Assembly (NCBI RefSeq): GCF_042453785.1
Contig: NC_091670.1
Span: forward strand, 41,365,501-41,429,500
DNA length: 64,000 bases
Direction: 5' to 3'
From: Malus domestica
Taxonomy: Eukaryota > Streptophyta > Magnoliopsida > Rosales > Rosaceae
This document shows positions 5,906 through 35,275 of the stretch, one piece after another. The notes beneath the pieces were generated by a model. The model had not been told where the DNA came from. It was given only the letters and a program-made list of their open reading frames with translations, and made no database searches. Numbering within the stretch: the first letter of the stretch is position 1; each line of letters begins with the position of its first letter. The position numbers were made by a program, and so were the translations under genes.

Positions 5906-5941
5906 CAAGAAAATAGTAATATCAGTTTTTAAATTAAACCC

Positions 5942-6271
5942 TGTTGATGCACAAAATCGGGTCGATCTTGGACCAACGTAAATCCGACCATGAATCACAC
6001 AAACGCACAAGAGCACGAAGATATATCGTGGTTCACCTTAAGTTGAGGCTACATCCACACTGGTGTTGATTCCATTTCACTATCTCAATGAATGTTGAAT
6101 ATACATGGAGGCTATAGAGGCAATGTTTGCTCTCTTTGCTATTATGTTTGCTCCCCCCTTTAAGTAGGTGTGAGGGAGCCATTTTATAGAATAAGGGTTT
6201 CCTCCCCTCTTACATGAATCATGGGTTAAGTAATGAAGCCCAAATACAGAGGCCCAATATATGGTATAACA
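5942..6271 (-). repeat. Left LTR (3' LTR) of element A
   Basis: 330 bp, bounded by TG and CA. It is similar to the right LTR at 12194-12679 except for a MITE present only in the right copy. Its 3' third resembles the LTRs of element B read in the opposite direction. Confidence 0.88.
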
Positions 6272-7925
6272 GGAGTCCCCTAAGCCTTCAGTCAATAGGG
6301 TATTTTGGCTGGAAACTTCAAATCCAATCCATGTGCGGGCTGAAGTGACTAGATGTCATCCAGAACTAGTACTCGACATAAGATGGTGCTTAACGTGAAG
6401 CAATACTCAGCTAGAGGTAGCATACATTGCGGGGCTGCTCGGCTAGAGGCAATACTCGCGGCGAGGCGGTTGCTCGATTGAAGGCGGTGCTCGTTGCGAG
6501 GCGGCTCGGCTTGTGGCATTCTTCATTGTGAGTATGCACTCGACGTCAGCGTGCACTCAGTATGAGTTAATTCTTGACATGACTCGGATCCGCTTCTATG
6601 TGTCGGGTCCGCAGATTGGGTCCACAAGTTGGGTCTTTGAGTCAGGGCTATCCGTAGGGTTCGTGAGTTGGGTCTATAAGTCGGGTCTTTGAGTTGAGGC
6701 CATCTGTAGGGTCTGTGAGTTGAGTCCACAAATTGGGTTCGTGAGTCGGGGTTCGAGCTCAAGGGTGTCCGATCTTTTAAGTGCCCAAACGAATCCAAGC
6801 TCGCGGGTGTCCAAGCACATATGTGTCCAAATGAGCGAGTGTCCAATCAGACAAGAGATTACCGTTCGGACTAAATCTTTGTCACCATAAGCATATGGCT
6901 TAGTGATCCATAAGCTGATTAATAGTGTCGGTAGGCTTCTTTAATCAGCAACAATGTTGATCAATAGAGCTAGTTGCTCAATAATTCCTGACAATAAATA
7001 ATCGTATAAGTATGAATGCATAATGAATAAATCAAATTGACAAAGTTTGTCAAGGCAAAATATTGTACCATGTGCCTACTACAAATAAATAATTTATTAA
7101 GTTGTGTGGTAAACCACATATTGCATAAGTGACATAGTTAAAGGCAATCACATGACACTAGGCAGCATGTTAAGATTGTACAAATAAATGCCTATTTAGA
7201 CATATGTGATGCAACTAGGATTAGTGAAATTCGAATTATGGATATGGGAAGCATTCTTAGCATAATAATCTAAACATGAACGCATACAAATATATACATA
7301 TATATACACACAAAAATTTGTATTGTGTACCGTACCCACCGTGCCTTAACATTCAAAGAAAGAAAATGTGTCATGTGTCAGACTTCCCACATAGTGGAAT
7401 AGTCATGTGGAATAATCATGATAGAGTCTTATTATAATGATAAGCATGAACGCACAAGGTATGTGGTATTAGCAGCTTGTGTTGGCATAGTAGTAATGAT
7501 GCGACAAAAGATTATCATCATAATAAAATCTTTAAATAAAGACATATCTGTATACTTGCATTGTGTAGTGTGCCCTGAGTCACTAAAGTTCATCCCAACA
7601 TTTAAATAATGAATATAATATTAAAAAATGATTAAAGCTATGTTATTTTAAAAGAAGGTGGCTAACACCTTGTAACAAATATTATAAAATAATAATAATA
7701 AAATATTAAATAGATGATGATATTGAGAAAACAAACATAATGATGTTTGCTGAAAAGGAAAAGTAAAGGTGTTTTTTTTTTCTTTTAGCAGATGGAATTG
7801 GGTGGATACGGTTTCCCTTTGAAAACTTGCAGTGTGCTTGTAATTTTGGCAGAGAAGAGAGAGATCTAGAAAGCCTAAAACAAGGAGGAGCTGCTGCTCC
7901 ATTTGTTAGTTATCATTCCACTAAA

Positions 7926-7957
<32 letters not shown>

Positions 7958-8190
7958 GCATAACTTTGTGTGATGTGCTTTGTCACGTTTTTTACAGTGA
8001 TCATGTGATAAAATCATTAAATAATGTAAATGGTGTAGTGGATGTACAAACTTTACCACGTTTTATGATAATGATCACTGTGATATCACATGTATAGCAA
8101 TAATAATATTATTAGACAATGAGTTGTCATGTTAATGGGGCATAAATGATAATAATAAAGTAAGAAAATAACAAAAGAAAAAGATCTCAT
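6272..8190. other. Element A interior, 3' side: degenerate repeats, no gene
   Basis: Next to the LTR, 6272-6390 matches the corresponding end of element B (the block with CTTCAGTCAATAGGG and CCATGTGCGGGC). From about 6400 to 6530 there are GCTCGGC/GCGAGGCGG units. From about 6590 to 6760 there are diverged units around GGGTCCACAAGTTGGGTC. The rest is AT-rich without recognisable coding. A TA microsatellite lies at about 7924-7957. Confidence 0.6.
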
Positions 8191-8226
8191 CTCCTCTTTG
8201 TCGTGGGGTTTCTCCGGAGCGCATTT

Positions 8227-8560
8227 TCTAGATTATTCACCACAGCCTGATAGCAAGTCACAGTCTGAAAGCATCTCAGCTCTTGGCTAAAATCTGGCAA
8301 CCCAATAGTGTGGTGAAGAATCTTGTTGTCCCGTAATCGTTCGACCCTCTAACCGGCGTTGAGTTCATTGCAGCAGCCGGTGTTGGTGAGCCCGAGCTCG
8401 GTGACAAGGTGGTCAAGCAGAGTCAAGTTAAAGTCACTAGGGACAGTGAACACGTCGCTGACGTCGATTTGGACGAGTCGGCTCGTGAGGTGGCGACCAA
8501 GAGCGGCGTCGCAGGAGTTGATCACGGTAGAGGGTAGATGAGTTGGAGAAATAGGCATCA
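8227..8560 (-). pseudogene. PDC-like: Captured pyruvate decarboxylase fragment inside element A
   Basis: On the minus strand, 8548-8352 encodes a segment with DAALGRHLTSRLVQI, DVFTVPSDFNLTLLDHL and GCCNELNAG, the start of the thiamine-diphosphate-binding N-terminal domain of plant pyruvate decarboxylase (the family motif is VPGDFNLTLLDHL). A stop follows immediately at 8349-8351. The similarity resumes at SNDYGT and, after a one-base frame change, runs through LHHTIGLPDFSQELRCF and VTCYQAVVNNLE, ending near 8227. About 80 codons of the normal protein between NELNAG and SNDYG are missing. There is no intron in the segment. The fragment has no start context of its own, and no activity is expected. 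Its location inside the LTR element implies capture by the retrotransposon. Confidence 0.88.
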
Positions 8561-8606
8561 TTTTGGAGGGGTCTCTTCTTCGTCTTGGAAGGAAGAGAAG
8601 ACGGCA

Positions 8607-11600
8607 GAGGTTGTCACGCCCCGATTCTGACATACGTCCAAGATCGACAAGTGACGTCACCAAGTACTCGTATCTCTTACATACCCCATCTCCGGAATGT
8701 GGCAAATCACAACTCAAGAATCAAATTGCAAAGTAATTTTTCGTTTACTTTATGGCTGTATCTAACCTCATCGTTAGACTGCCTACGTATCCTCAATAGG
8801 ATCAAGCCATTCGTAGTTCCATAATCGTCAACTCTAATCTTTCCGTAAAATACTTCTAACAGAAAATCATAAGGCACCATATTACATATCAACCTTACGT
8901 CAACAACAATTATCATCTTTCATACACGCATGTAACCCATTCTCACACAGATACTTTCCAATTCATCCATCATATAAATCACCCCGTTTCACATAATCCT
9001 GCAAATCATAATATGTAACATATCAAAGAACCAACGAAGCACAATGTTATTCTCAAGTCACATTAATCAATTACTCTAATCATAATAATCTCAATCATAC
9101 CCAATGTCATTCCACAATCACATCAATTAATTAATCATGAATCAAAGATACATGATCTTAGCATTTAATTGTTTAATCAATGAATGCAGTAACATATCAT
9201 TTCACAAATTTAACCAAAGAACTCTAACAACTCTGAAGGAGTCATCCAGACATCCAACGGTTCGTCTGGATCAAATCACAACAGCTCATAATCATAATCT
9301 CATACAACACCATGAAAAGTATGGCTAGAGCGACACAGTTCGGCCGAAGCCTACATCTCTGAAGCTATCTCGATCCAAACTCAATAAAACCTAAGGTGAA
9401 CACGATCCCGGACCATCTCTCAACAGAATCACGAAGTATGAGGGATTCCGGACCAGCTCTTAACGGAATTCAAATGCATACGATTCCTGACCATCACTTA
9501 ACGGAATCGTGGAGCACAATGCATAATCACCACTAAATGAAACCCAAGTTAGATACGATTCTGGAACATCACTCAATGGAATCGCGGAGTAGAAGGGATT
9601 CTGGACCATCTCTTAACGGAATCCGAGTAGATACGATTCCGGACCATCACTCAACGGAATCGCGGAGTAGAAAGGATTCTGGACCATCTCTTAACGGAAT
9701 CTGAGTAGATATGATTCCGGACCATTACTCAACGGAATCGCGGAGTAGAATGTGTAACACCAATCAATGAAACAATACATGGATCAAGTTCTTCAAGGTA
9801 TAAAGACTCAATGAAACAAGAATGAAATAATGACACGAGGGTTGAAACATGTTTCGAAGTAACAAACCCCATAACAATAGGTTAATGGTCCACTACTAGC
9901 CCTCGCATTTCATCACATCAATACAATCATACAATACAAACCATATTTCCAATGCACAAGTCAAATCATACTTAATGAAAATAGATCAATGACCAAAAAT
10001 AAAATAACACTTCAATAGAATTCACATTTAAGTAAGATGGGTCTATGGCATATATATATAATTCACATTTCAATGTGCAATTCGAATCACTTTTCCACAA
10101 ATAATACCCATCCATGAATCAAATCACATTTAATAAAAATAGATCGATGACCAATTATAAAAGAATCACATTTAATAGAAAACACATTTATAAAACCATG
10201 TCATATCCACAAATGATATTAATACCATCACTCAATTAGTAGTAAAGAAGATTAGAAAGGAATCTGGAAAGAAACTAGGTGTGGCAAAAACAGTACTCTG
10301 CTTCTCCACAAAATCTGCAGAAAACAGCACCATTGGACCAAGTTTAGGCTCTCTTTGGAACATTCAAAACTAAACTAAATCAGGTAATATTATATGGGTT
10401 TTGAAGCTTGTGTTCTGTACTTTAAAAGCATACAAAGTTTGCGGAAAACGAAGCTCTAAATTGGAAGTTATGCCAAAAGAAAAACGGAGTCTTGAAACTG
10501 GACACCCAATTTTCTGTTGCTGTTTGGCAGTTCGCGACCCAAGTTTAAATAAGGTTTTGATCAACCAAAACTCAACGGATCTGAGTGAAAAAAATTGGGT
10601 TACAACCATGAACATATGTACTTTCAACACACTAAAATTTTTCTCCAAAGGAGCACATAGAGGCCTAGAAATTAAGAGCCAAAGAAGGCTACTCGAAACT
10701 TGAGTTTTCTTTGCAATGAAATTAATTTTCTGCAGCTTACGTAACAGCCCACTTCCAATTCATATAATAAATCCCAAAATACTTCCAAGTAGTCCAGAAG
10801 TCATGTATACAACATCCAAACTAACATGACTCAAAATTAACAAGAAATTGACCTTTTGAACCAAACCCTTGATCAAGAAATTTGATCTACACACCCAATC
10901 CAAAATACCCAACTCTAATTCATGTTTAGACTAGTTCATTGAATGGTAGAAAACCCTAAACAAAACCAAGAACTCCAAATATATCATGGCAGTTTCAATT
11001 CAAATATATATGTAGCAAGCGTCGACAATACCGACTAAAACCAGAAAAGAAATTGAAGTAAAAGAACCTCATGCTCATTCATTGAATCTGATCAACATAC
11101 ACCACACACAAATGTAGAACAACAGATATTGTAGGACATGTGGAATTAACCCATGGATATCAAGCACATTTTAAAGCCTTCTGTCTGTTATGCTACTCAC
11201 CATTTATATGTATAATCTCTTGGTAGTCTTGCTAAACTGAAGGGCATCAGAGTGATTGGACCAACATGGAGTCCATCGAATCTGCATTGGCATCAATTGA
11301 AAGGTGAGGGTGTGTGAACCGAGAGAGAGACTCCTCCCCCTTCCCCTGGATGAACGGAGATCAGAGAGTCTTTCCCTTTTTTTTTGTTTTTTTGTTTTTT
11401 TTTCTTCTGTCCACTCCCCCTCATTCCTTCTCGATAGTTCTCATTTTCTCTCCTTTTTCTGATGGTCCCTTGCCTTTCACTCTCTTCTTCTCATTGGGCA
11501 TCCTTCCCACAAAGTGGGATTTTAATTAATTAAAAACTATAGTTTAGTAAATGATTTCAAATGTCCATAACTATACCGTTATAATCTGGACTCACAAATG

Positions 11601-11832
11601 GCTTTCGACCATGCGTTCGTGGTTTCAAGATCTATTCGAAAACGTTACTTGTGACCTCGAAAGGTCAACGAATTTTAAATAATTATTTTCTAAACTTCAC
11701 TCTTGGTAACTAATTTAATTGAAATCTAAATTCAATAAATTAATATAAATTTTTGAAAAATAATATAAAATCTCAATAATGCAAATACATAGATTATAAC
11801 AGTGAAATTTGGAAACGGGATTTCACAGAGGT
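8607..11832 (-). mobile_element. 3.2 kb solo LTR nested in element A
   Basis: The element runs 8612-11827, beginning TGTCACGCCCCG and ending GGGATTTCACA, with the 5-bp duplication GAGGT on both sides (8607-8611 and 11828-11832). No second LTR, gag or pol was found between these ends, so I read it as a single very long LTR left by recombination. Orientation on the minus strand is inferred from the TGTGAAATCCC start. A partial relative in the opposite orientation lies at 35276-36221. Confidence 0.75.
9395..9760. repeat. Tandem array in solo LTR (GATTCCGGACCATC...AACGGAATC units)
   Basis: At least seven diverged units share GATTCCGGACCATCTC followed by TTAACGGAATC. Short spacers such as GAGTAGAA alternate with CGGAGTAG. 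The same units recur on the opposite strand at about 35345-35580, which ties the two LTR copies together. Confidence 0.8.
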
Positions 11833-12175
11833 TGTGGAGGGAGGATTTCAGTGGAACTCGGAAGGGTTGTGAGGATTTCGGTGGCTGTGGGCTTGGCCGG
11901 CTTTGTTTCTTCCATTGGTTCCTTGGTGGTGTTTGTCTGGGGAGTTGAGCAGACTGTTGCTTCGTGATTGCAGGAAGTGAGGTGTTTGTGGTGTGTTTCC
12001 TTCGCTGCTGCCGTGACCGGGAGATGGAGCGGAAGACATGGGTTTTGCTGTGACTGTGCATGTGTTTGGTTATTAGGTTTCTGTCAATTCACGGTGGAGG
12101 TTGTGAGGTTATGAGGGTTTCTCGGTGGTGTGATGAAAAAATAAAAGAGAACCGACATAGCTTTTCGTGTCGATT

Positions 12176-12193
12176 CCCACAGACGATGCCAAA
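12176..12193 (-). other. Primer-binding site of element A
   Basis: Immediately inside the right LTR the minus strand reads TTTGGCATCGTCTGTGGGAA. The same position in element B reads TTTGGCGCCGTCTGTGGGAA. TGGCGCC-type sites pair with a tRNA 3' end; which tRNA primes is not determined here. Confidence 0.8.
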
Positions 12194-12679
12194 TGTTGAT
12201 GCAAAAAATTGGGTCGATCTTAGACCAACATAAATTCGACCGTGAATCACACAAACGCATAAGAACACGAAGAGATATCGTGGTTCACCTCAAGTTGAGG
12301 CTACGTCCACACTGGTGTTGATTCCGTTTTACTATCTCAATGAATGTTGAATATACATGAAGCCTATAGAGGCAGTGTTTGCTCTCTTTGCTATTCTGTT
12401 TGCTCCCCCCTTTAAGTGAATGTGAGGGAGCCCTTTTATATAAGGGGTGTGCTATCCACACACCCCTTTTTACTTCTCACACACCCTTTGTTAATTTCTG
12501 TCCATTGATCTTCTTCAATTCATCCAATCCGACGGTCGAAAACCCAAAAGATGTAGGAGAAGTAAAAAAGGGTGTGTGGATATCACACCCCTTATATAAT
12601 AAGGGTTTCCTCTTCTCTTACATGAATCATGGGCTAAGTAATGAAGCCCAAATACAGAGGCCCAATATATGGTATAACA
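12194..12679 (-). repeat. Right LTR (5' LTR) of element A, with a MITE inserted
   Basis: 486 bp. It matches the left LTR apart from about 156 extra bases (12442-12593), which form a small inverted-repeat element. Confidence 0.88.
12442..12593. mobile_element. MITE inside right LTR of element A
   Basis: The ends AAGGGGTGTGCTATCCACAC and, in reverse complement, AAGGGGTGTGATATCCACAC are nearly perfect inverted repeats. The left LTR lacks it and shows the empty site. AT-rich flanks (TATA) suggest a short AT target duplication. Non-coding. Confidence 0.8.
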
Positions 12680-12684
12680 AACCC

Positions 12685-13236: not shown

Positions 13237-15801
13237 AAGGGGGTGTAGTCAATTTGGATTTCAGAGGATTTTAATGGATTTTTTTAAGTGACCAATTTGA
13301 AAGGATTTTAATTAGATTTACAATTCTACGTGGATTTTGGTAGATTTATATGGATTTCTATTATAGATTTTTATGGATTTCTTAGGATTTTAGTTGACTC
13401 CTACAACATAAAATGAATTTCTTTTTAAGCACACAATCTGAAAATAACATAAATTGAAAGGAACATAAACATATATCCATTGATATAGAAATACAAACCA
13501 ATCAAATATGTAAAAAGAATGGGTCATTGAGAATATTGATCCAAGAGTTTGAATAATTGTAAAGGATAGCTTCTGCTTTAGAACATCATATCCATTCAAG
13601 AATGATGATTTCAAGTTCAAGAACAGGATATCCAATCATGAATAATAATATATGTGAAAGAATACCAAATGACAATTGAAATTGAGTAGGGCATATTTGG
13701 GTAGCAAAATACTGGGATAAAAACATTTTAACCACAACAAAAAAAAAAAAAAAAAAAAAAAAAAACAAAAAAACAAAAGAAACATTTGAACCCAAAAACA
13801 TGGACCCTAATTTGCAGAAAAAAAGGCTTTAAATCAGAAGTGCAAATGGGAAAAGCCCAACTTAGAAAAATCAAAAGTACAAATGAGAGAATCTCAATTC
13901 GGAAAAAGCAAGAGTATAAAGCAAAACAACATACAACTATAATCCAAATTAAAAAAAAAAGAAAACTAATGAAAAGGGTTTCAAATCTTTACATTTTAAT
14001 AAAAAACCACTCACTAACTTTATTTTAATAATAGGGACAAAAGATCAAAAAAAAAAAAAAAACATAACAAACCCACTAGCGTTGGGCGCGTACCCCCCCA
14101 CCCCCCAATCCACTTTTTTGCTCCTACCTTTTGTCCCATCATTCAGCTACATTAATAGTTTTTTTTTGGCATAGAATTAAAAAAAAAAAAACTTCGAATT
14201 GAATTACATTCTCATGTTTTATTTTTGTGGTGTTGTTTTCTAATAGTAGTCATGATGATGAGAAACTTTTCAATGTGCCCAGAACACGGAATGGTACACT
14301 CCATACAAGTTGTGAAAATCTTGTGTTAAAAAATTAATAACATAAAAAATAAAATTTTCCACCACACTTATATAATAACATGTGGTATATCATTGGTGTT
14401 ACGGGCACAAGGAAAAATTTCTCGAAGATGACACCTAAGCTCAAGAAATTGGATGGAAAGCTACATTTATTATTGTAGGTATATGAAAAAAGTGAGGAAA
14501 TTTTAATTTGGTAATTGAAAACAGCTTTTTAAATATAATTACTGAGAATTAAACATTATTTATAAAACTTGACCAATAAAGGTCTAAGTTTCAAACCTTA
14601 TGAAACTGAACCAAGAATTAAACACTATTTATAAAATTTTACCAATAAGTAGACACTATTAATGAAATTAGACCACTAAGTAGACATCATTTATGAAACT
14701 AGATCAATAAGTAGATACTATTTATGAAACGAAAACAAGAATTAAGCATAGTTTGAACACTGGACTATACACTATTTATGAAACTGGAGTAAGAACTAGA
14801 CAATATTTATGAATTATGACCAAGAAATAGGCATTATTTATGAAAGTTGACAAATAACTAGACACTATTTATGAAACCGGATCAAGAAAGAGACACTATT
14901 AATGAAATTGTATCAATTACTATACATTATTTATGAAACTATACTCAATAACTAGGCATTATTTATGAAAAATGATCAAGAACTAGACATCATTTTATAA
15001 AAGTAGACAAAAAACTAGACATTATTTATGAAATTGAACCAATAAATAGTATAGTACCGTTCAGTTTCATAAATAGTGCAGTTTCATAAATAGTGTTCAG
15101 TTTTATAAACAGTGTTCAGTTTCATAAACAGTGTACATGTACTGCGCGCGCGTCAGGTTTTTTGTTTTTTTTAAATTGTGTCCTTTTCGTTAAAAATTAA
15201 GTTTTTTTGTCATTTTTATTAAAATTTAAGGGTTTTTCATTAAAATTTAATTCTTTTTTATTAAATAAAGTTTATAGCATGGTTTTTTGTTAAAATAAAC
15301 TTAGTCCAAGCTCTTTTCATTAAAATTCCCAAAAGAAAAATCATGTTCCGATTGTTGCTCATCTTCCCAAAGGAACAAACCAAGAGCATGAATTCAGAAA
15401 AATACATAAACAATGCGAAAATGGGGAGTCTATTGGGAAATGCTCTATGGTAGGACTGTTCACCTTCTATGGTTTGTTGTGAAAATAAATCTGAGGGGGG
15501 GGGGGTGTTGAATTGTTGATAGCATTTGTTATTTATATTACCCACTCTCTAATTCATTAAAACCCTTCATTCACAAAAATCCTAGAAAATCTTTGACATT
15601 TCCACTACAGCTAGATTTGTATGGACTTTTTAAAATTTTAATTTACTACCATGAATTTGGATGTATTCTTTAAATCCTCGTACATCCTAATTTAACTACA
15701 CCATGATTTTAAAATCTTTTAAAATCCACATTCAAACTCCTAATTGACTACACTCTAATTTTAAAGTCTATTAAAATAATATCAAATCGTAGTTTGACTA
15801 A
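13237..15801. mobile_element. Putative non-autonomous DNA transposon with sub-terminal repeats
   Basis: The left side starts near AAGGGGGTGTAGTCAATTTG, followed by many GGATTTTAATGGATTT units (13237-13400). The right side (15560-15801) has the same units on the opposite strand, including reverse-complement GTGTAGTCAATTAGG. This arrangement of inverted terminal and sub-terminal repeats suggests a DNA transposon. The exact ends and target duplication are unclear (TAA possible). No transposase is visible inside; the interior holds poly-A tracts and a minisatellite (14540-15135). Confidence 0.5.
14540..15135. repeat. AT-rich minisatellite, about 34-bp unit, orientation switch near the end
   Basis: About 14 diverged units of the form ACTAGACACTATTTATGAAA plus a short spacer (GACCAATAA or GATCAAGAA) run from 14540 to about 15045. 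From about 15058 the units appear as the reverse complement (CAGTTTCATAAATAGTG, four copies). The switch means the right end can fold back on the array. Confidence 0.85.
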
Positions 15802-17209
15802 GGTGAGCAGTTTTAAAATTCCAGAGTTTTGATATAAAGTTGTGTTTGGTTTTTTTATTATATTCGACTTGAATTTGGTTTTTTGTTGTTTGATTTTAGT
15901 GAAATCACAGTTTGGGTTTAGACTTTTGGTTGGGTTTGGTTATAATTTTCTGTGTTGATTAAATTTGATAACTCCAAAACTGATTATTGGTTTGGTTTCA
16001 TAGGTGAGGGAGATAGAGGGAGAGGGGGAAATTGTGGGTTCAACACTCTCGCTTCCGTTCTTGGAAGGTAATTCTTTACCATTTAAGTCTCATTCAATTT
16101 CTGTGAATTTACAGTTTTTGGTTGTTTTAATGGAAAATGGTTTCTGGGTTTTGTTTGTTTTTTGGTGTGGGGGGTGGGGGGTGGTTTATATATGTGTGGA
16201 GAAATTTTTGGTGAAATATGGTCAGTATAAGGCTTTTTGGGTTGTTTTGGTTCAACTGGGAGTAGTTGCTGAATTTTTCGTGGTGAGAAAGAGTTTTTAT
16301 TTTTCCTAAATAGAGTTATTTATTTTGAAATCCCAAATTGAATGAAGACTTTATATATTGCTGTAGCAGTTGCAAAGAAATGAAATGTAATTAGGTGATT
16401 ACTTTGTTTGTGTTTATGTTAAAATAGAAAATAATTGTTAGATAAGTACTATGTTTAAATCAATTTATCATTGATAATTTAATTGTGTTACCATGGTTCC
16501 ATTCTTCCGAAATTTCTGAGTTCGAAGCAGATCAATATTTACATTTTTATGTTTAATTTTGGGAAGAAATGAAAATGAGTTTTGCCTTTTTGAGTATTTC
16601 ATCAGTACTAGCTTGCTGCATATGCTGTTCTCTGGGTGTAAAGATAATTCTCTTCTAAGCAAGCTCGCTTATCTTTGAACTATTTAACTGATTTGTGGTT
16701 GCAACAAGATTTTTCCGAACTTTTCCCAGTCTTTTTAACAGTATTAGGTCTCTGTCCTGCATGTCACTAGGCTTATTCATTTTTCAATTCACATTGATCA
16801 CGGATTTATAGTTGATTGCATTTCATTTTGACTGCTTTAAACGGGTTTTCATCAGCATGTCTGACATGATAAAATCGTGTCTTTTGGATTAATTCAAACA
16901 ATGTAAACATTTCATTCGTATTCTTGATCGTTGTTAATATTACAGTGCATTTTGAAACCTAAGTTATGGATCTATTAGTTTCAATTTAAACATATTTGGA
17001 AACTTAGAGATACGTTTATTAGTTCACATGTATTACTGCTGGAAAGTTAGAGACTGCTGATGATACTAGATTTATCCATACAATTTCTAACCTGCAGCAA
17101 CGCTTGGGCATCACTTTCTAGTAAATGCTAAATTACACATCATAACAAAAAAACAAAAAAACAAAAAAACAAAAAAACAAAAAAAAAACAAAAAAGAGTT
17201 TCCAAAGAA
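15802..17209. other. Intergenic region before the CRK gene, no gene recognised
   Basis: No reading frame with family similarity is seen. A purine-rich segment at 16003-16030 followed by a possible donor (GGTAATTC at 16068) could be an untranslated exon, but nothing supports it further. The end, 17143-17197, is a C-interrupted poly-A repeat (A7C units), probably a decayed retroposon tail. Confidence 0.4.
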
Positions 17210-18656
17210 CTATCTAGGATATACTTCGGTGATCAATGAAACCTCATTTTTTGGTGCTTTGACAGAGCTGTTCTTGGATCGATCCGACCCGGTTGTCATC
17301 ACCTCTGAACTATTCCTCCATCCCAAAGACACGTCAGATCCAATGTTGCTATCCCTGAAAAATGCTGGTTGTGGGGGTACCGGAAGTGTGACTGAGTAAC
17401 TATTAAGCATTAGAACAATAGCATTCATGGTTGGCCTATCAGCTATATTTTCTTGCACACACAGTAACCCAATGTGGATGCATCTCACTATTTCATTTCT
17501 TGAACCATTCGTCAATGTGGGATCAATTAGATTTGAAGTTGTCCCTTCCCTCCAACATATCCATGCCTGCAACGATTGTAAAATTTGTAGAAACATAATT
17601 AGGGGTTTAATTATTTTTCTTGGTTGCAAGATGCATATTGTTTCAAGTACTTACATAGCTTAGAAGATCCTCCACATTTTGTCCATGACGAAAGCAATTA
17701 TTTTTTTGACCGCTTACTATCTCCAAAACTAAGACACCAAAACTATAAACATCTGACTTAACAGAAAAGTGCCCATGCAGTACATATTCTGGAGCCATAT
17801 ATCCACTGCATATCAATAACAAGAATAATGTTGTTTTTAACACTGACATATTGAATTATTGATATAGATTTACACAATTCTAATACAAGCCATGTAGACT
17901 CATCAAGTACTTACTAGGTCCCCACAATTCGACTGGTGTTGCCTTGTGTTTGATCAAGCTCGAACAACTTTGCCATGCCAAAATCTGATATTTTGGGGTT
18001 CATTTCTTCATCTATCAATATATTACTAGCTTTGAGATCACGATGAATAATTCTAAGCCGAGATTCCTCATGAAGGTAAATAAGTCCTCGAGAAATGCCT
18101 ACAATGATTCTATGGCGCCTATTCCAATCCAATTGTGCGCGCTTGATTGAGTCTGCATGTTCAATTAAATTGAAGAATATAATGTTTGTTGTATGTTACA
18201 TAATGATAAAATTTTGAAGTTAAAGCCAAAAAGGACAAGAAGATCACTGATGCACAAATACCAAATATGATGTGGTCGAGACTTGCATTAGGGACAAACT
18301 CATAAATAAGAAGCCTTTCAATTCCTTCCAAGCAGAAACCCAAGAGCCTAACTAAGTTCCGGTGTTGAAGCTTTGCCACTAACAAGACCTCATTTTTAAA
18401 CTCCAAATCTCCTTGTCCAGAATTTACGGAAAGCCTTTTCACTGCTATTTCTTCTCCATTCAATAACCTACCCTGGAAGAGTATCAAAACAAAAAGGTTT
18501 GCATTGGTGTTGCCCGTGTGATGTTGTTAAGATTTCAAAGGGATGTTAGGTTTTATCACAATAAGCCGGCCTCGGTGTTACTAATGGTGGAATAATTGTT
18601 ATGTTGTATTTTATCGTCAGGTATGAAGTGAGATTTTATATTCTTCAATAGATGTG

Positions 18657-18708
<52 letters not shown>

Positions 18709-21740: not shown

Positions 21741-21749
21741 ATTTTGGGC

Positions 21750-22121: not shown

Positions 22122-22776
22122 ATTTGGATGATGAGAAAGATTGAAGCTTTGAATGTTTTAATGAATACAACGAGTCATGGTGCACGAAGTTTAATTCCTT
22201 ATTTTAAAGGAGATTTGTTTTTGGTCGGTGAGGTAAGCAGATATATATCATGCACGCGGAGGATGAATATTAAATTTCTGCTGTTTGCTTCCCTTGCCCA
22301 CTTGAACCTTTCCGGTTAGTCCTTTCTAATCTTGATTAGGGAAAATAAGCATTTGCCTCATTACTATATAAGTAATGAAATGTGGTGTTCTGCTGTCAAG
22401 CTTGTTTCCACGTCACCTTTTCTTATTTGGTAGATCGGGTATATATATATTAATTTATTTATATCAACACAATGCATGTGACAAAGATTAGTGATAGAAA
22501 AAAGGTTGATAGAGATGGAAGTGGTGGGCGACATGCCAAATTAATCAAAGTCGTCGTTTGATTGGTTAAATTTCTACCGTGATTAGTGCTGGTCCCCAAA
22601 CGATGGTCCTTTGACTCAAGAAAAACAACTCTTGGTCACTTACACAAGGTCCATAGACTTGTTGCAATTACCTAAACGAGAATAAATTGTTGCACCATTG
22701 AAAAGAACAATGAACCAAATAAATGCTAAATTACACATTGCAATTGTTAAAAAAATGCAGTTTCCATCTTAAGGAG
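22122..22776. other. Duplicated intergenic DNA of the CRK cluster
   Basis: 22190-22390 is paralogous to 59935-60115 (shared GATTTGTTTTTGGTCGGTGA and AGGGAAAATAAGCATTTGCC), and 22470-22760 is paralogous to 20320-20560. No gene. These are flanks carried along with CRK duplication. Confidence 0.7.
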
Positions 22777-24943
22777 CTATTTAGGATATACTTCGGTGAT
22801 CAGTGAAACCTCATTTTCTGGTGCTTTGACAGAGCTATTCTTGGATCGACTCGACCCGGTTGTCATCACCTCTGAACTATTATTCAATCCCAAAGACATG
22901 TTAGATCCACCGGTACCATGCCTGAAAAATGCTGGTTGTGAGCGTACCGGAAGTGTGACTGAGTAACTGTTAAGCATTAGAACAATGTGGATGCATCTCA
23001 TTATTTCATTTCTTGAACCATTCATCAGTGTGGGATCTATAAGATTTGAGGCTGTCCCTTCCCTCCAACATTTCCATGCCTGCAACGATAGTGAAATTTG
23101 TAGAAATATAATTAGGGAGAAATTATTTTTCTTGGTTGCATTATGCATATAGTTTAAGTACTTATATAGGTTAGAAAATCCTCCTCATTCTCTCCATGAC
23201 GAAAGGAATTACTTTTCTGTTCGCTTACTATCTCCAAAACTAAGACACCAAAACTATAGATATCCAACTTAACATAAAAGTGGCCATGCATCGCATATTC
23301 TGGAGCCACATATCCACTGGATAGCGATAACAAGAATAATGTTGTTTTATCACTAACATATTGGATTATGGATATAGATTAACACAAGTATAATTGATAA
23401 ATGAATTTTATATTATATATTTTACCCTATTCTTCGTATATTTTGGTTAATATTTTGGAAGAATTTTGATACTTTGAATTGTATTTTTAATATAGGACTT
23501 TTGACTTCCTTTGGAGCAAAACGTGGTCAAATGGACGAATGTTGGAGTAATTCCAGTCAGAAGACGTTCGTGAGTCACTTAGCTTGATCGTATCAAAATT
23601 TAGGATTTTTCCACCAAGCGGTTATTTTCTGGTGATAAAATAAAGGAGCGATGTGAGGTGCTGGAAAATGACGTTTATGGGCTTAAATTGTGTTTTTGGA
23701 GCCCAAGATGACCTCAAATATTTTCATGGAATTCTAGAGATGTGTTCGGAACATCCTGATCTTTAAAACAAGCTAACTTGGGCCGGATTTGGAGGAGATC
23801 TGAGGCTAAAACGTGGTTGGACAAGTACTTGGCAGATTCTCCTAGTTTAATTAGGGTTTTATTTTCTAAGATATTTTATTATTTTTCTTAGTTTCCTAGT
23901 TGGAATAAGAAACCAATGTCTTAGGGTTTGTGGAGGGCTGAGAAAATGTATTGCTTGGCCGTCTACAGTTTTTCACTACGCTTATTATTATTCAACTTCA
24001 GAGACAAAGAACTTTGCTAGGGTTCTGGGAGATTTTATACTTTAAGGTGTTTTCATTCATTTTCTTCTTAATAATATTTTCTATGTTTTCAATTATGAAT
24101 ATGCGTAACTAATTCCTCATGCTAGGGCGAAGCCTTGAAACTTAGCATGAATATGTAATTTTTATTTAATTGCTTATGATTGATTGCATGCACACTTTGA
24201 ATTATTGATCACTATTTTTAAACTATCTAATTGTCTTGATGACTGGCCACCATTAGGATATTTAGACAAGTGATTGGATGCAATTCGGTCGGAATATCAC
24301 CGGAGGATTGAGTATTGCTTCTTGTGATTGATAATTGTAATTTCATCTAAGGCGAATATCACGTTCTTAGGGGTTGCATGGTTCTTCAAAAGGTTTTCAT
24401 AAAACTTAGTGAGCCTTGCATGTTCATATTTGATCTGAATATCACAGACGGATTGCATAATAGATATACGTTCTTGCTTGAATATCACAAGGAGAAATAT
24501 ATTAGGAAAACCTAACCTTCGAAGTGGCATGTGTAAATCATAAGTAATTGGTAGAAATTCATAGGATTGCTAGGTGATGGTGGAACCCTAGTGTCTTTAT
24601 AAATTGGTATTTAAAACTCTTTTCTTCAATTATATTAGTTTTTGTTTAAAATTCGTTTTTAATATTACCCAATCTCAAACTCTCTTTTCTCAAGTTTTAA
24701 TTCTAAGTATTTAATTAGGAATTGTTTCTACATAAATTGTCCAAATAGTCCTTGAGGAGAACGACCTTGCATGAGCATCTATACTACAACATCCTTGTAT
24801 TCTTGCAAGTATTTCATGTGATTTTGACCCTATTTGCATAGACGTTAAAAATCCTATCAATAATATAAGCCATTTAGCCTCGTCAAGTACTTACTAGGTC
24901 CCCACAATTCGACTAGTATTGCCTTGTGTTTGATCAACCACAA
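22777..24943 (-). pseudogene. CRK pseudogene (kinase C-terminal exons only), split by a solo LTR
   Basis: Recognisable pieces on the minus strand: the end of exon 5 (24943-24894, [13 protein letters not shown]), exon 6 (23318-23169, [13 protein letters not shown] to EEDFLTY) and exon 7 (about 23080-22777, [17 protein letters not shown] to SLITEVYPK). The exon 6 donor is mutated from GT to AT. Exon 7 lacks about 19 codons, jumping from RCIHI to VLMLNSY where the intact copy has [18 protein letters not shown] between them. Everything upstream of the activation loop is missing. A solo LTR (23395-24859) sits in intron 5. Closest in sequence to the intact gene at 17210-20176. Confidence 0.92.
23390..24864. 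mobile_element. Solo LTR in CRK pseudogene intron 5
   Basis: The LTR runs 23395-24859 (1465 bp), beginning TGATAAATG and ending CCTATCA, with the 5-bp duplication ATAAT on both sides (23390-23394 and 24860-24864). The flanks rejoin to a sequence like intron 5 of the intact CRK. The part near 24750 (TTGAGGAGAACGACCTTGC) recalls Ty3-type LTR ends. No coding. Confidence 0.88.
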
Positions 24944-25931: not shown

Positions 25932-25957
25932 TAAAAATGGCGTCAAACGAGTGTAAG

Positions 25958-27095: not shown

Positions 27096-27119
27096 GGTCC
27101 ATGTCATCCTGTTAGTGCT

Positions 27120-27720: not shown

Positions 27721-28045
27721 TTTTATAGTAGAATTTCAACTTTTTTCATACTATTTCTTCACAGATTTTTCATTGACCGGTGTAGAAAAAAAATTGCAGG
27801 CACTGATTGAGATATATATGTTATGCATGAACATGAGAACAATTGATTCCATTAGCAAAGATATATATATATTTTTTCCAATGATGATAAAGTAAATGAA
27901 AGTCTCCGATTGATATAGATGTAGTGACAGTACATTAATCACAAGTAGCGAACGAGGAGATGGGCGTGGAAGTCGTTTTGATAATTGAATATCTTCTCTT
28001 AATTATAATTTATAACTAAATGGAGCTCACACATGAAGATGACGA
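27721..28045. other. AT-rich region, no gene
   Basis: No coding similarity or defined repeat seen apart from short TA runs. Confidence 0.5.
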
Positions 28046-28262
28046 CTTGTTTGAATGTACTTTTAGAATGACTAAAAATGTTTTTAAAGAAAATGTTTTT
28101 AGGTTCCAAAAGCACTTAAAGTGCTTTCTACAGTTATGTGCTTCTTCCCGGAAGCACTTTAAGTGATTATCTAGGATTTACTAGCATTTTTACTAAGGAT
28201 TGTTTTCAAAAATATTTTTACCAAAAGTGCTTTCAGTTATTTTAAAAACACATCCAAACAAG
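28046..28262. mobile_element. MITE, same family as 2113-2306
   Basis: The ends CTTGTTTGAATGTAC and (reverse complement) CTTGTTTGGATGTG are inverted repeats extending about 30 bp with mismatches. The centre carries CAAAAGCACTTAAAGTGC and its complement. No clear target duplication. Confidence 0.7.
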
Positions 28263-28356
28263 CTTGATTTATTACAGTAACAAAAAACAATCATGTTCCT
28301 CCTAAAAATTTTGACAGAGTATTGCTTATTAATGAATACAAATTGAGTAGACTAAA

Positions 28357-29060
28357 GTAAGCCCCAATCTTTTTTTTTTTTTGGTAGAATGGGAATTATA
28401 TTACCTAGGCTAAGAAGCCAAACATACATAAAAAGCCTACCACGAGGCAAGCAAACAAAACAACAAAAGCGAAACCAGATAGCAGAGGGAGTTACAAGGA
28501 AGACATCATAGCCACGCTAATCCGTCACCCACTCCACTGCTTATATTCCTTCACGGAGGACAGGGTAAACCATCATTTTGAAGCATAAAAACTAACGAAG
28601 ATGGGGGTCGATTGACCCAAGAAACCTCGCACACCTCTGCGCACCTCTGTGACGCCAAGAAGTCCACCAACATGTTGGCTGATCTTGGAATCCAAGACCA
28701 GAGACAATCTTGAAAAGACTCCCCTAACCGTTTAGCATGCAGTAAAGCAAGGTAAGCCTCCCAGCTGCCATTCTCAATCGAATTCGACAGAGAAGTAATA
28801 GAGTTGTGAGAATCATATTCAACAACAACCTGTGTAAGTCTCAAAACAAGTCCACATTCACATCGTTTGAGGATTGCAACGGCTTCAGCAACACCCACCG
28901 ATGGAGCGCGAATAGCATGCCTTCTTGCAGCGACAAAAGAACCCTCAACATCCTTAATGAGAATCCCCACAAAACTGTAACATGTCCGAACTGACCAACT
29001 AGCATCAACATTTACTTTTAAATAGGGCACGGTAGAGAACCATGTAAGCCCCAATCTTTT
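28357..29060 (-). mobile_element. 5'-truncated LINE insertion with RNase H-like domain
   Basis: The insert 28374-29043 is flanked by a perfect 17-bp duplication, GTAAGCCCCAATCTTTT (28357-28373 and 29044-29060), and has an A tail on the minus strand at 28374-28382. The minus-strand frame from the insert edge to 28551 (about 165 codons) encodes a plant LINE-type RNase H (RVT_3): VNVDASW with the first Asp, AEAVA with the Glu, VEYDSH with the second Asp, and RSANMLVDFLAS near the end, where the last catalytic residue of the usual motif seems preserved as Asp. The frame is still open, suggesting a recent L1-type insertion. It is not a host gene. Confidence 0.92.
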
Positions 29061-29316
29061 GTCCTACAAGAAACCTAATTCTTGACTTACAAGAAAAACC
29101 ATAAGATAATAATAAGCAAGAAAACTCATTTTCAACGAGGTAACCAAATTATTCGAAATTGTTATATTAATTTAAGGGAGGGAAAGTTTCGAACTCAATA
29201 CACACAGGTAGACAACCAACACATTATCCACTATCTTCACATCACATCGCTTAGGTAGTTTGATCATCCCCACTTACGCTTTCAGCGTCTACTTCGCTGA
29301 AGATATGTGATCGCCT
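29061..29316. other. Spacer between LINE and copia remnant
   Basis: No coding similarity seen. Confidence 0.5.
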
Positions 29317-29962
29317 TGTTGTGCCTTGACCCATTCGTTAGTGCGGAAACGAGATTCAAATTACAACCTCACCAAATCACACTCAGTTGAACAGAATAAA
29401 ATACAAGAAATAAAGACACTGAGAAATTTACGATGTTCGGCTAAAACATGCCTACGTCCCTGGAGAGATATTGCTCTTCACTATGAGAATAACAGTACAA
29501 GTACACGTAAGTTAAATCAACATAATTCAATCCTAATCCCTTGCACACCCACTCTAGAATTTTCTCAAGAGCCTCACTCTACCCCAAGAGTTATTTCACT
29601 AGAATACTTTTCACTCTAGCTCTTTTGATTTTCTCTCAACCCATGTTCAACCTTTCCTATGGAAGAGCCGAATGCTCTCTCCACCTTGGATGCTTTTCTG
29701 GTGCTTACCTTCCCGCTTTCTAAGCATACTAAATGCACAAATATTGCATCTAGTTATAGGCATACACTAGCAACTATGCCAACAACCAAGACAAAAAAGT
29801 CTTAATTTCACATGACATAATCATCACCTAGCCTACCTAGCATGCACCAAAGTCTATACCTAGTCTATAAAGTACAACTTTGCTTGTGGCAGTCACCATG
29901 TCTTCAATTGTTGTCAACACATGACTCATAATTACTCACAAATGTATGAGCCAAACACAACA
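29317..29962 (-). repeat. Left (3') LTR of copia remnant
   Basis: It aligns with 34864-35272 over its first 410 bp with few changes (for example GTTAGTGCGGAAACGAGATT in both). The last 240 bp have no partner because the right LTR is truncated. Confidence 0.88.
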
Positions 29963-30219
29963 ATCTCCACATTGGCGAATACACCATGCAAAAATCCTTG
30001 CACCCATCACCAAAGCCCATTGGCCTTAGGTACCAGCATAAACACCCTGAATCCACCTCGTTGGTCCTGTTCCAATTCAGTCACTGCTAATGCATGTGCA
30101 GCTGCTGCAAGCTAAAAATCACCATTTAGCTTCAGACAGGATCTCGACACATCCTCGTCTCCTCCAGCAGGTTTTCCTCCTCTTCATTGTCTGCAACCTG
30201 GAAACTTGTCAATGCACCC

Positions 30220-30592
30220 TGTTTGTACCATACTTAGGGCCTCCGTATTTAAATCTCGTATAAATACTCGGGGGACTCAAATGTAATTATGTAATAAAGG
30301 AATGGGCAAATATGTAATAAGTGAGGAGCCTTTATTTTATAAAAGGACTCCTCACTCTTCTCATTAGGGGAGGCCAATTTCTTAGGCCATAGGAGAGAGC
30401 TCTCTCACCCTCAGAAGCTCTCTTCCTCACATACAAAGCCACAAGGCTCACAAACAGAGAAATACAATATCAGTGTGGACGTAGCCCAAACATTGGAGTG
30501 AACCAAGATACATCTTGCGTTTTTTTACTTTCTTGCAAATTCACGGTCAGATTTACGTTGTTCCAAGACCCCTCCGGTTTTGTGCATCAACA
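30220..30592 (+). repeat. 5' LTR of element B
   Basis: 373 bp, TG...CA, nearly the same as 33468-33838. It contains TTTTATAAAAGGACTCC, which may be the TATA region. Confidence 0.92.
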
Positions 30593-31137
30593 TTTGGCGC
30601 CGTCTGTGGGAATCGACACAAAAAATCATGTCGATTCTCTTTCATTTTTTTTCATCTCACCACCGTGGATTTGCAAAAACCCAAACCCAAAGCACAAACA
30701 TCTTAACACTCTTAACAAGACACATCATCCCAGCCAATCAAATGACTCCCCTCTTTCCTCTGTGTCATGAGAAGCCTCACTAAACGCGTGACAGAAGAGA
30801 GAGAGAGAGGTCGGGCGAAAAAGATGGGTCGCAGCTCCACATTTCAGTCTATAGGTCGTACCGACGTTGCTTCTTCTTGGTCATCTGGTTGCCGAAGTCT
30901 CAGCAGGTGATGCTCTGTTTCTCGGTCATCTGGTTGCCAAATTCTAGGAAGTCGTCTGCACCGAAGCACGGCATCGACGCCACCCGCTGATACCAAGGCG
31001 ACAACAGCTGAGGACTCGTCAGATCAGGGCCCTACGACCAGACTTTTTGATGGATCTCGAGCCAAGAACTATGGATAGCGTCAGATCAGGGCTCTACGAC
31101 GCTCCCTTCATAACTCGCCCCGCCGCTGTGAAATCAA

Positions 31138-31590
31138 ATATGCTGGGTCTACTGCCCCTGCTGCAAAGGCACAGGTTGCAGAATGGCCACCAATTCGTTC
31201 CTTCCAAAAAAAATTCAATGGTTTCCGTTCCTTCGAAAAATGATGATGATACTGAAGGCAAGATGGGAGCATGGTGTCTATATGTTAAGGTCAGCATGGA
31301 TGGTGCACCGTACTTGAGGAAAGTTGATCTGAAAACCTACGGTAGCTATCTGGAGTTATCTCTAGCTATGGAAAAGATGTTCAGCTGCTTTACAATCGGC
31401 CATTGTGGCTCACATGGAGATTCGAGAGACGGATTGAGCGAGAGTCGATTGGATCTTCCACATGGTGCTGAATATGTCCTCACCTATGAAGACAAAGATG
31501 GCGATTGGATGCTAGTTGGTGATGTTCCCAGGGAAATGTTTACCGACTCATGTAAGAGGATGAGGATCAACTTGGCACGATGACAGCGCA
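31138..31590 (+). pseudogene. Aux/IAA-like: Captured Aux/IAA auxin-repressor fragment inside element B
   Basis: 31160-31230 encodes [15 protein letters not shown], the domain II degron region; family members read AAKAQVVGWPPVRSF. A frame change near 31225 moves to the frame that encodes the PB1 domain (domains III and IV) to the stop at 31581: [41 protein letters not shown], then [19 protein letters not shown] and DSCKRMRI. The PB1 acidic D-K-D-G-D motif and the basic-face lysine remain. Canonical DVPWEMF has become DVPREMF. Domain I (the LxLxL repressor motif) is not seen, and the usual introns between domains are absent, consistent with capture from a spliced transcript. Broken frame, so treated as pseudogene. 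Confidence 0.92.
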
Positions 31591-31745
31591 GAAGATGCCC
31601 ACCAACTTTCATCATGCATGTTCCCCTGAAAAAACTACAGGAAAATGAGCAATTAATGCACAGCAGCCCAAGCTCTTTATTGATTAAGGGAATCAACTTG
31701 GCATGATGACATCGCAAAAGATGCCTACAAACTTTCATCATGCGG
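31557..31745 (+). repeat. Direct repeat of the Aux/IAA 3' end
   Basis: 31564-31616 (ATCAACTTGGCACGATGACA to CAACTTTCATCATGC) recurs, slightly changed, at 31691-31743. The duplication arose after capture. Confidence 0.8.
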
Positions 31746-31940
31746 TGGTGATGAAAGCAAAAGCAGAAAGCAAAAGAAGATAAAAAGAAGTAGACATAAT
31801 TGCGGTGGTGATGGCATGCATAAAAAGGAATTATGGGCGTGACCCATTGAGCAGATGATCGATTTTATTTTCGAATGATGTAATTTATTTTTCTTATCTT
31901 TTGGAGACATCTGTATAAACCCCATCAGAGGGTTAAAAAA

Positions 31941-32363
31941 AAAAGTACGTCCAGTACTCCAAAATTATTCGGCAACCTGCCGCTATTACCACCCACTAGG
32001 TGATCAAAAGTACGTCCAGTACTCCTAAAATTATTCGGCAGCCTGCCGCTCTTATCACCAACCAGGTGATCAAAAGTACGTCCAGTACTACAAAAAATTA
32101 TTCGGCAGCCTGCCTCTATTATCACCAACCAGGTGACTAAAAGTACGTCCAGTACTACAAAAAATTATTCGGCAGCCTGCCGCTATTACCACCAACCAGG
32201 TGATCAAAAGTACGCCCAGTACTCCAAAATTATTCGGCAGCCTGCCGCTATTACCACCAACCAGGTGATCAAAAGTACGCCCAGTACTCCAAAATTATTC
32301 GGCAGCCTGCCGCTATTATCACTAACCAGGTGATCAAAAGTACGTCCAGTACTCCAAAATTAT
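31941..32363 (+). repeat. Tandem array, 65-67 bp unit, about 6.4 copies
   Basis: Each unit begins AAAAGTACGTCCAGTACT, continues AAATTATTCGGCAGCCTGCC and ends CACCAACCAGGTGATC. Unit starts are at about 31943, 32008, 32074, 32141, 32208, 32273 and 32338. The repeats are contiguous, without spacers, and lie within element B. Confidence 0.93.
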
Positions 32364-32522
32364 ACATGAGCATTACTCATGTCAATCATACATAAACATT
32401 CATGAGCATCACTCATGTCAACCATACATAAACATTCATGAACATCATTCATGAGCATATCACTCATGTCAACATTCATGAGCATCACTCATATAAACAT
32501 TCATGAACATCACTCATGTCAA
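32364..32522 (+). repeat. Short repeats of CATGAGCATCACTCATGTCAA type
   Basis: About six diverged units of 20-40 bp with the core CATGARCATCAYTCATG, which is itself partly palindromic. Confidence 0.8.
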
Positions 32523-32740
32523 TCAACTTCAAAAACTTCATTTACAGAGCTCCAGCTTCAAAGCTTCATTTACAGAGCTTCAAAAACTTCATTTACAGAG
32601 CTCTAGCTTCAAAAGCTTCATTTACAGAGCTCCAGCTTCAAAGCTTCATTTACAGAGCTCCAGCTTCAAAGCTTCATTTACAGAGCTCCAGCTTCAAAGC
32701 TTCACTTTCAAAGCTTCACCTACAAAGCTTCAGTGCATGG
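32523..32740 (+). repeat. Tandem array, about 28-33 bp unit (TTCATTTACAGAGCTCCAGC)
   Basis: About seven units with the core AGCTTCATTTACAGAGCTCC. AGCTT and GAGCTC sites recur in every unit. Non-coding, although it is open in two frames by chance of its composition. Confidence 0.9.
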
Positions 32741-32776
32741 TATACAAAGACCGTCTCCGAACAACCGCCACTTCAG

Positions 32777-33467
32777 CCCATACATGGATTAAATTTGAAG
32801 TCTCCAGCCAATAGCCTCTATTGACTGAAGACTTGGGGGACTACACTATGTACCATATATTGGGCCTCATGAAAAATACTCGGGGGACTTAACCCATTAT
32901 TCATGTATTGAGGAGCGAGCCTTTATTTTATAAAAGGGACTCTCTCACTTTCATTAGAGAGCACCCATCACTTATGTATTGAGGAGCGAACTCTTATTCT
33001 ATAAAAGGGACTCCCTCACCATCATTAGAGAGCATCGCTGCCTGTTGAGCAACCGCCTCGCTGCGAGCACCAACTCTAGCCCATCTTTTTTGTATTGAGG
33101 AACGAGCCCTTATTCTATAAACGGGACTCCCTCACCATCATTAGAGAGCATCGCCGCTTGCTGAGCAACCACTTCGCCGCGAGCACCAACTCTAGCCCAT
33201 CTTTTTTGTATTGAGAGCGAGCCCTTATTCTATAAAAGGGACTCTCTCACCTTTAACGCCACAAGCCGAGCCAACCAAGGCAACATAAGCCACAAGTAGA
33301 GCAGCCTCGCAACATGTGCTACTTCTGGTTGAGCATCATTTCGGATTGGGCACCGCCTCATATCGAGTATAAGTTCTAGACGACATCTAGTTACTTCGGC
33401 CCACACATGGATTGAATTTTAAGTCTCCAGCCAAAAGACTCTCTTGACTGAAGACTTGGGAGACTAC
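32777..33467 (+). repeat. Iterated LTR-like segment before the 3' LTR of element B
   Basis: 32777-32848 (to GACTGAAGACTTGGGGGACTAC) duplicates the end of the internal region at 33400-33467. It is followed by a decayed LTR start (ATGTACCATATATTGGGCC) and then four copies of TATTGAGGAGCGAGCC with TTATTCTATAAAAGGGACTC. Probably tandem duplications at the 3' end, perhaps from strand switching. Confidence 0.75.
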
Positions 33468-33838
33468 TGTTTGTACCATACTTAGGGCCTCCGTATTTAG
33501 ATCTCGTATAAATACTCGGGGGCCTCAAATGTAATTATGTAATAAAGGAATAAGCAAATATGTATAAGTTAGAAGCCCTTATTCTATAAAAGGACTCCTC
33601 ACTCTCCTCATTAGGAGAGGCCAATTTCTTAGGCCATGGGAGATAGCTCTCTCACCCTCAGAAGCTCTCTTCCTCACATACAAAGCCACAAGGTTCACAA
33701 ACAGATAAATACAATATCAGTGTAGACGTAACCCAAACATTGGGGTGAACCACGATATATCTTGTGTTCTTTACTTTCTTGCAGATTCACAGTCGGATTT
33801 ACATTGTTCCAAGACCCTTCCGGTTTTGTGCATCAACA
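33468..33838 (+). repeat. 3' LTR of element B
   Basis: 371 bp; pairs with 30220-30592 and is followed by the CACCC target duplication. Confidence 0.92.
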
Positions 33839-34161
33839 CACCCATTTCCAGCAACATCCGTCGAGCCAGACAAACATTCCTCACACTTCTCTTCCTTCAG
33901 GACCATCTCATCACCTGTGAATCCCATAGCTCCACCTGTTGCAAAAGCCCTGCAACACTTGAGACTAAACATCACCAGGAGAAGTGTTGCTTTGAGTACC
34001 TAGAGGGTATACTCGAAGGCTTCCGCCACAAAATTGCTACAACCCGGACCAAGATCATCATTTCTTTTTATCAAAGGATAATTTTTCTTTTTATGCCCGA
34101 ATTCTTTGCAGTCGTAGCATTGTAGACCCTTGCCTTTGGAACTCGATTTGAACCTACTGTC

Positions 34162-35272: not shown

Positions 35273-35275
35273 ATG

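Follow-up and report, generated by a model that had tools for sequence, protein, structure and literature searches.

Capture of spliced host exons by long terminal repeat (LTR) retrotransposons is already known from maize Bs1, from soybean terminal-repeat retrotransposons in miniature (TRIMs), and from retroduplication in pepper. In Bs1, an LTR element, fragments of three host genes are fused; the review that describes it presents one cargo set and no copy-specific slot (PMC13317346). In soybean and Medicago, captured exons were reported in 30 TRIM elements from 7 of 289 subfamilies (1.2-1.4 kb; PMC4717578). Here, we analyzed a 64,000-nucleotide stretch of the apple (Malus domestica) genome (NCBI RefSeq assembly GCF_042453785.1, contig NC_091670.1; C10:41365501-41429500), referred to below as the window, which contains two LTR insertions, elements A and B. 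These elements very probably belong to a high-copy nonautonomous family that keeps its ends fixed, has its middle refilled from host mRNA by template switching, and depends on proteins supplied in trans.

The TRIMs of soybean and Medicago resemble this family in being nonautonomous, in their 5-bp target site duplications (TSDs), in their exon-only cargo, which in some cases stems from three genes, and in re-transposition, whereas in apple we deal with one family of 3.5-4.1 kb (six elements measured) that has near copy-specific slots and mostly recognizable cargo (PMC4717578). Surveys of captured genes also exist for rice and sorghum (PMC3726574), for Solanum aethiopicum (PMC6771550), and for pepper (PMC5664825), where ∼72% of the retroduplicated NLRs reside in elements devoid of coding potential for gag or pol and derive from spliced mRNA. 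These genome-wide surveys likewise report host genes within LTR elements but cover many families, that of pepper being centered on NLRs, and the portions available to us do not describe one common shell around an exchangeable slot. Our search, which left most of the subscription literature outside its reach, found no description of one high-copy family combining a fixed shell with copy-specific spliced cargo. The novelty thus lies in a single high-copy family whose shell is fixed and whose cDNA cargo is near copy-specific and often multigene.

Element B showed the following organization (window coordinates; match counts refer to 75 fetched stretches).

30215-30219 and 33839-33843, no strand: TSD CACCC of element B, read directly.
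30220-33838, plus strand: element B, 3,619 bp, with paired LTRs and a TSD.
30220-30592, plus strand: 5' LTR, from the LTR alignment.
30593-30690, plus strand: conserved leader with the primer-binding site (from 30595), matched by 37 of 75 stretches.
About 30691-31742, plus strand: cargo slot, any part of which is matched by only 0-3 of 75 stretches in the coverage map.
31141-31569, plus strand: captured Aux/IAA cDNA, four parental exon pieces joined with three introns absent.
31743-33467, plus strand: 3' shell with tandem repeats (31941-32363 and 32524-32746) and a terminal purine tract, matched by 13-37 of 75 stretches.
33468-33838, plus strand: 3' LTR, from the LTR alignment.

The LTRs of B are 92.5% identical, and the element carries both the primer-binding site TTTGGCGCCGTCTGTGGGAATCGACAC and the purine tract ACTTGGGAGACTAC. 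Its cargo encodes an Aux/IAA domain (PF02309, E 3.9e-51; best PDB match, IAA17). The parental gene was located on C15, where the corresponding exon pieces occupy positions 951-978, 1501-1731, 2089-2228, and 2381-2415 of the fetched stretch L026; they are joined without introns in B. Compared with the parent, the B copy has 6 synonymous and 10 nonsynonymous changes and a 1-bp frame change, counts that decide nothing on selection. Element B itself sits within an older LTR element, delimited by direct repeats at 29316-29727 and 34862-35274 (93.5% identical), in which a Copia-like gag reading frame, named by eye, lies at 34162-34914 on the minus strand.

Element A is oriented oppositely and is interrupted by a nested insertion.

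5937-5941 and 12680-12684, no strand: TSD AACCC of element A, read directly.
5942-12679, minus strand: element A, an LTR retrotransposon insertion with paired LTRs and a TSD.
5942-6271, minus strand: 3' LTR, from LTR alignment and reading.
6272-8221, minus strand: 3' shell, matched along its length by ∼6-33 of 75 stretches in the coverage map.
8222-8611, minus strand: slot part 1, with a pyruvate decarboxylase (PDC) piece at 8246-8534, from the coverage map and protein and DNA matches.
8607-8611 and 11828-11832, no strand: TSD GAGGT of the nested solo LTR, read directly.
8612-11827, plus strand: nested solo LTR of an unrelated family (TGTCACGCCC...GGATTTCACA), 3,216 bp, from BLAST and reading.
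11833-12090, minus strand: slot part 2 (5' side), common mainly to sister copies on C15, with a gradual edge toward the leader.
12091-12193, minus strand: conserved 5' leader with the primer-binding site at ∼12167-12191, matched by 38 of 75 stretches.
12194-12679, minus strand: 5' LTR, carrying a foldback insert of ∼150 bp (about 12443-12592).

The LTR pair of A aligned in two BLAST pieces (91.2% and 95.5%) and is 92.4% identical over the aligned columns. Once the nested solo LTR and one copy of its TSD are removed, A measures 3,517 bp. Its cargo corresponds to the N terminus of PDC (PF02776, E 9.6e-5, under the Pfam cutoff; best PDB match, E 2e-7), is 91-95% identical to the host gene at the DNA level, and lacks ∼140 bp of coding sequence present in the parent on C12. 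The parental exon match ends at a GT donor, beyond which the element continues with residues resembling the next exon. An inverted partial copy of the family of the nested solo LTR lies at 35385-36219 of the window.

A and B share the U5 end of the LTR, the primer site, and ∼70 bp beyond it (12123-12320 versus 30665-30465, 78% identity, E 4e-38), as well as ∼170 bp ahead of the 3' LTR (78.5%, E 2e-41), a likeness far beyond chance. None of 10 window open reading frames (ORFs) scanned contained a gag or pol domain. A preliminary description of this DNA had proposed that A and B are LTR insertions with common ends, that both measure ∼3.5-3.6 kb without the nested solo LTR, that they lack gag and pol, and that they carry PDC and Aux/IAA, respectively. 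The paired LTRs, the TSDs, the significant end matches, the measured lengths, the domain scan, and the Pfam and PDB matches bear out each of these proposals, that for PDC with a Pfam match below the cutoff. The minus-strand position of A was absent from that description, and its view of one shell family needs refinement: the common ends stand, but A and B represent two shell types that have only these ends in common.

We then searched the source genome (651 Mb, 19 contigs) with the interior of B (30720-31940) and with the LTR of A, which returned 1,940 and 1,471 first-look candidates, respectively, of which 40 were scored each; these are candidate counts and not copy numbers. The 40 places scored with the B query comprised B itself, 3 found via the Aux/IAA part, and 36 found via a shell segment only, the latter matches lying within 31632-31940 and mostly within 31753-31940. 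We read 31 of the 36 shell-only places, 11 as search loci and 20 fetched separately (five were not fetched). The leader was present upstream of the shell segment in 29 of the 31, in 20 within the first stretch and in nine after we fetched sequence farther upstream, and the remaining two (L029 and L037) showed instead a 5' LTR with a primer site. Since a leader or primer site lies upstream in 31/31 loci, the slot (∼1-2 kb) is inside the element. A mistaking of flanking genes for cargo was ruled out, as all nine initially leaderless loci have the leader in their upstream stretches. Eleven loci extended far enough for the 3' internal end to be seen, and 10 of these have it.

TSDs were inspected in 11 further elements: 8 are perfect 5-bp duplications, one contains one mismatch, and 2 could not be judged. 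In nine of these, the LTRs are 317-395 bp long and 90.8-95.5% identical within pairs. The LTR ends are TG..CA, as in A and B, with a single-base change at one LTR end in a few elements, and GGGACTAC precedes the 3' LTR in 10 of the 11. The primer-binding site of the family may pair with an Asp tRNA. At L057 (C2:20430050-20434680), an LTR lies downstream of the slot and has a further primer site behind it, as would be seen in tandem elements or elements that share an LTR.

When slots were compared pairwise, before the last upstream stretches had been fetched, their edges matched and their middles mostly did not. Partial sharing was seen for L028-L039 (978 bp), L032-L040 (203 bp), L050-L053 (200 bp), L049-L058 (151 bp), L031-L051 (140 bp), L047-L051 (135 and 64 bp), and L047-L056 (131 bp). 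ORFs picked by eye matched host proteins (Pfam, E<=0.01) in 23 of the 31 slots, in sense at 20 loci and in antisense at 4, with L040 in both groups; the matches of L038, L043, L047, and L057 fell under Pfam's own cutoff. The families represented were Cu/Zn SOD, 14-3-3, Tic22, DUF1639, Cir_N, DnaJ, SWIB, aspartic protease (TAXi_N), LRR, GFO_IDH_MocA, Sugar_tr, PspA_IM30, bHLH-MYC_N, RRM, EPF, tRNA-synt_2c, HGLS, TCP1, chlorophyll a/b-binding, and purple acid phosphatase. A selection-free check with the two longest sense ORFs of each slot (62 in all) yielded 21 families, some of them overlapping (five LRR and two transporter models); the 62 antisense ORFs chosen by the same rule yielded five. 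As a control, 41 ORFs taken from 3' shell sequence at 11 of the loci gave one weak match, to a bacterial-named family. No match to gag, reverse transcriptase, RNase H, or integrase was obtained with these slot ORFs (62 in each orientation) or with the 41 shell ORFs. An integrase piece in L006 and a peroxidase in L007 were not counted, as they apparently lie outside the family element, and an HSP90-like cargo read by eye in the A-type loci L008, L016, and L019 was not confirmed by Pfam (L008 tested).

Two initial expectations about the cargo were dropped. That it would be in sense orientation only gave way when the antisense control revealed four loci, and that it would always reach the 5' end of the mRNA did not hold: the 14-3-3 cargo of L032 does include sequence ahead of the ATG, but the cargos of A and B begin within coding sequence.

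To trace the origin of the slots, we searched for the parents of six cargos: Aux/IAA (B), 14-3-3 (L032), DnaJ (L037), alanyl-tRNA synthetase (L045), PDC (A), and THOC7 (L040). Nine introns were precisely missing across four of them, and the GT and AG edges of all nine were read in the sequence: three in Aux/IAA of B (parent on C15), one in 14-3-3 of L032 (C8), three in DnaJ of L037 (C13), and two in alanyl-tRNA synthetase of L045 (C16). A was left out of the intron tests, as the PDC exon that follows was not matched clearly. Most cargo pieces matched their parents at 90-98% identity (range, 85.9-100%). Several slots are multigene fusions, with pieces of up to four loci in a single slot, which further refines the preliminary description. 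The slot of L037 contains, in order, DnaJ (C13), a 70-bp piece (C7), SWIB (C2), and an aspartic protease (C3), and in that of L045, pieces of two C15 loci and of alanyl-tRNA synthetase (C16:398 kb) are combined with a piece related to C16/C13 sequences. L040 fuses antisense THOC7 with 14-3-3, and one 14-3-3 gene on C8 matches both L032 and L040. L039 matches Sugar_tr and MocA, the 978 bp it has in common with L028 belonging to the LRR-MocA slot of the latter. Several THOC7-like copies lie close together at C5:4177181-4262796.

Sister copies with the same cargo were found for three of the six cargos searched, those of A (twice on C15), L032 (C14), and L037 (C13), which indicates that loaded elements transpose again. 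L025 (C1:11371344-11374629) carries a piece of the same C15 Aux/IAA gene as B with different ends, and the two have one derived site in common over the aligned exon (read by eye); judged from these ends, L025 may represent a second, independent capture. Rough divergences between cargo and parent, compared with those between paired LTRs, were ∼4% versus 7% for B, ∼8% versus 5.5% for 14-3-3 of L032, and ∼5% versus 4.5% for DnaJ of L037.

These data extend the earlier suggestion of a conserved shell with exchangeable host cargo, as the slot differs in nearly every one of 31 copies and 23 hold a host protein piece. The genome search that the preliminary description had proposed, run here on a sample, recovered varied host cargos and not a set of gag-pol elements devoid of cargo. 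That description had also raised the alternative that unrelated LTRs inserted into older genomic DNA; the host pieces tested are instead intronless copies within TSD-flanked insertions.

Precise loss of introns implies an RNA intermediate, and with the multilocus fusions it argues that spliced mRNA is the source of the slot contents. Their acquisition is best explained by template switching of reverse transcriptase, which fits both the joining of several mRNAs and the 5' junction of L032, where ∼5 bp (AGACA) are shared; at L045, neighboring matches overlap by a few bases. In the proposed mechanism, the elements would be copied by proteins supplied in trans, and they would retain the ends needed in cis, namely, the LTRs, the primer site together with ∼100 bp of leader, and the 3' half with the purine tract. 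Within particles, reverse transcriptase would copy the 3' half of the element RNA first, jump to copackaged host mRNAs, often several in succession, and go back to the leader, which would yield a new copy with spliced host cDNA between fixed ends. Such loaded copies would be able to transpose again with their cargo. We infer the supply of Gag-Pol in trans from the absence of gag-pol in the family ORFs scanned. The excess of sense cargo fits switching during minus-strand synthesis.

Capture could alternatively have occurred at the DNA level, by Pack-MULE-like filling or recombination with host genes followed by LTR mobilization. Some cargo matches, such as that of THOC7 in L040, are indeed contiguous in the genome and have no testable intron, but the removal of nine introns at their exact GT-AG edges in four cargos needs RNA, so that for the cargos tested this explanation is already largely refuted, and we regard it as highly improbable overall. 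An RNA route is provided by read-through transduction, in which the element transcript extends into a neighboring gene and carries it along, as is known in plants from Rider/SUN (PMC13317346). This is incompatible with L037 and L045, since the pieces of one slot derive from different chromosomes, and the pieces sit between the leader and the 3' half, inside the element and not beyond an LTR; we give this explanation very little credence. It could also be that one or a few loaded masters spread after ancient captures and that the slots differ by decay and nested insertions. The same-cargo sisters of three of six cargos and the slot pieces common to several sampled pairs agree with such a history, but the named genes differ from slot to slot, and their pieces, mostly 90-98% identical to the parents, are too fresh and too varied for one decayed interior, which makes this history improbable.

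Several observations weigh against repeated refilling from spliced mRNA. The portion of the B slot at 30691-31140 has no explained origin, and eight of the 31 slots (L033, L035, L036, L046, L048, L054, L055, and L056) gave no Pfam match. THOC7 in L040 has a single contiguous genomic match (84-85%) and PDC in A matched one parental exon, so neither provides a splicing test. The antisense cargos, THOC7 (L040), ubiquitin-like (L047, below the cutoff), TIP49 (L051), and NAF (L058), fall outside a simple minus-strand model and need plus-strand switching or another joining step. In element pairs with part of a cargo in common, the 3' side of the cargo is not always common, so a clean replacement polarity of slot filling is not shown by these comparisons. 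The 3' internal end is missing from the stretch of L030, no 5' LTR was seen upstream of the leader in L038, and no autonomous partner was found, although no search aimed at a gag-pol partner was made.

We also compared the family with other known elements. Pack-MULEs similarly have constant ends, swappable host fragments, and chimeras, but they are DNA transposons whose captured sequences contain introns as well as exons (PMC4717578), whereas the apple elements have direct LTRs instead of terminal inverted repeats and lack introns in four cargos. TGTT/AACA subfamilies of Rosaceae have similar LTR-end letters and some lack gag-pol; we rejected identity with them, as their LTRs are TG..TT or AA..CA instead of TG..CA, and no cargo is reported in the text available (PMC5659011). 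Large retrotransposon derivatives differ by a large conserved noncoding interior, usually >4 kb (PMC4668562), compared with 2.7-2.9 kb and a nonconserved slot in A and B. The apple repeat HODOR (KX869746), described at 9.7 kb, differs in length (PMC13334179). Autonomous gypsy and copia elements have a gag-pol coding region, to which the family ORFs scanned gave no match. Processed pseudogenes of the long interspersed nuclear element type would be recognized by a poly(A) tail and a target duplication of their own at the cargo; the slots of this family occupy a constant shell position and are often fusions. A survey of pear LTR elements counts 2,580 elements in nine TRIM families, and its main text does not contain the string "captur" (PMC4668562); the family might be among such annotated sets.

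Elsewhere in the window, related cysteine-rich receptor-kinase-like gene pieces, named by eye, cluster at 17200-18500, 22750-23400, 40500-41900, and 57200-58200. A direct duplication of ∼2.3 kb (48126-50397 and 53771-56158) is 91-93% identical, and an array of ∼31-bp tandem repeats occupies 14545-15055.

Prior evidence for capture comes mostly from single elements or from surveys of many families, and here many independent-looking captures lie behind common ends in one genome. The rate of capture, the choice of mRNA, its orientation, the rules of the switch points, and the fate of fused exons thereby become countable. A further possibility, which we put forward tentatively and consider unlikely, is that cargo uptake is a regular part of replication: reverse transcriptase would cross host mRNAs round after round when the particle holds no homologous partner RNA, the slot would be kept open by selection for the flanking cis-acting ends, and the family would form a running record of the host transcripts present at movement. 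Since sister copies show inherited cargo, uptake would not take place in every round. For genome annotation, the family is a hazard, as copies may be called genes and masking libraries built from them could hide real genes. For the apple genome, it is a source of multigene chimeras that parallels Pack-MULEs at the RNA level and that fuses and scatters fragments of host genes.

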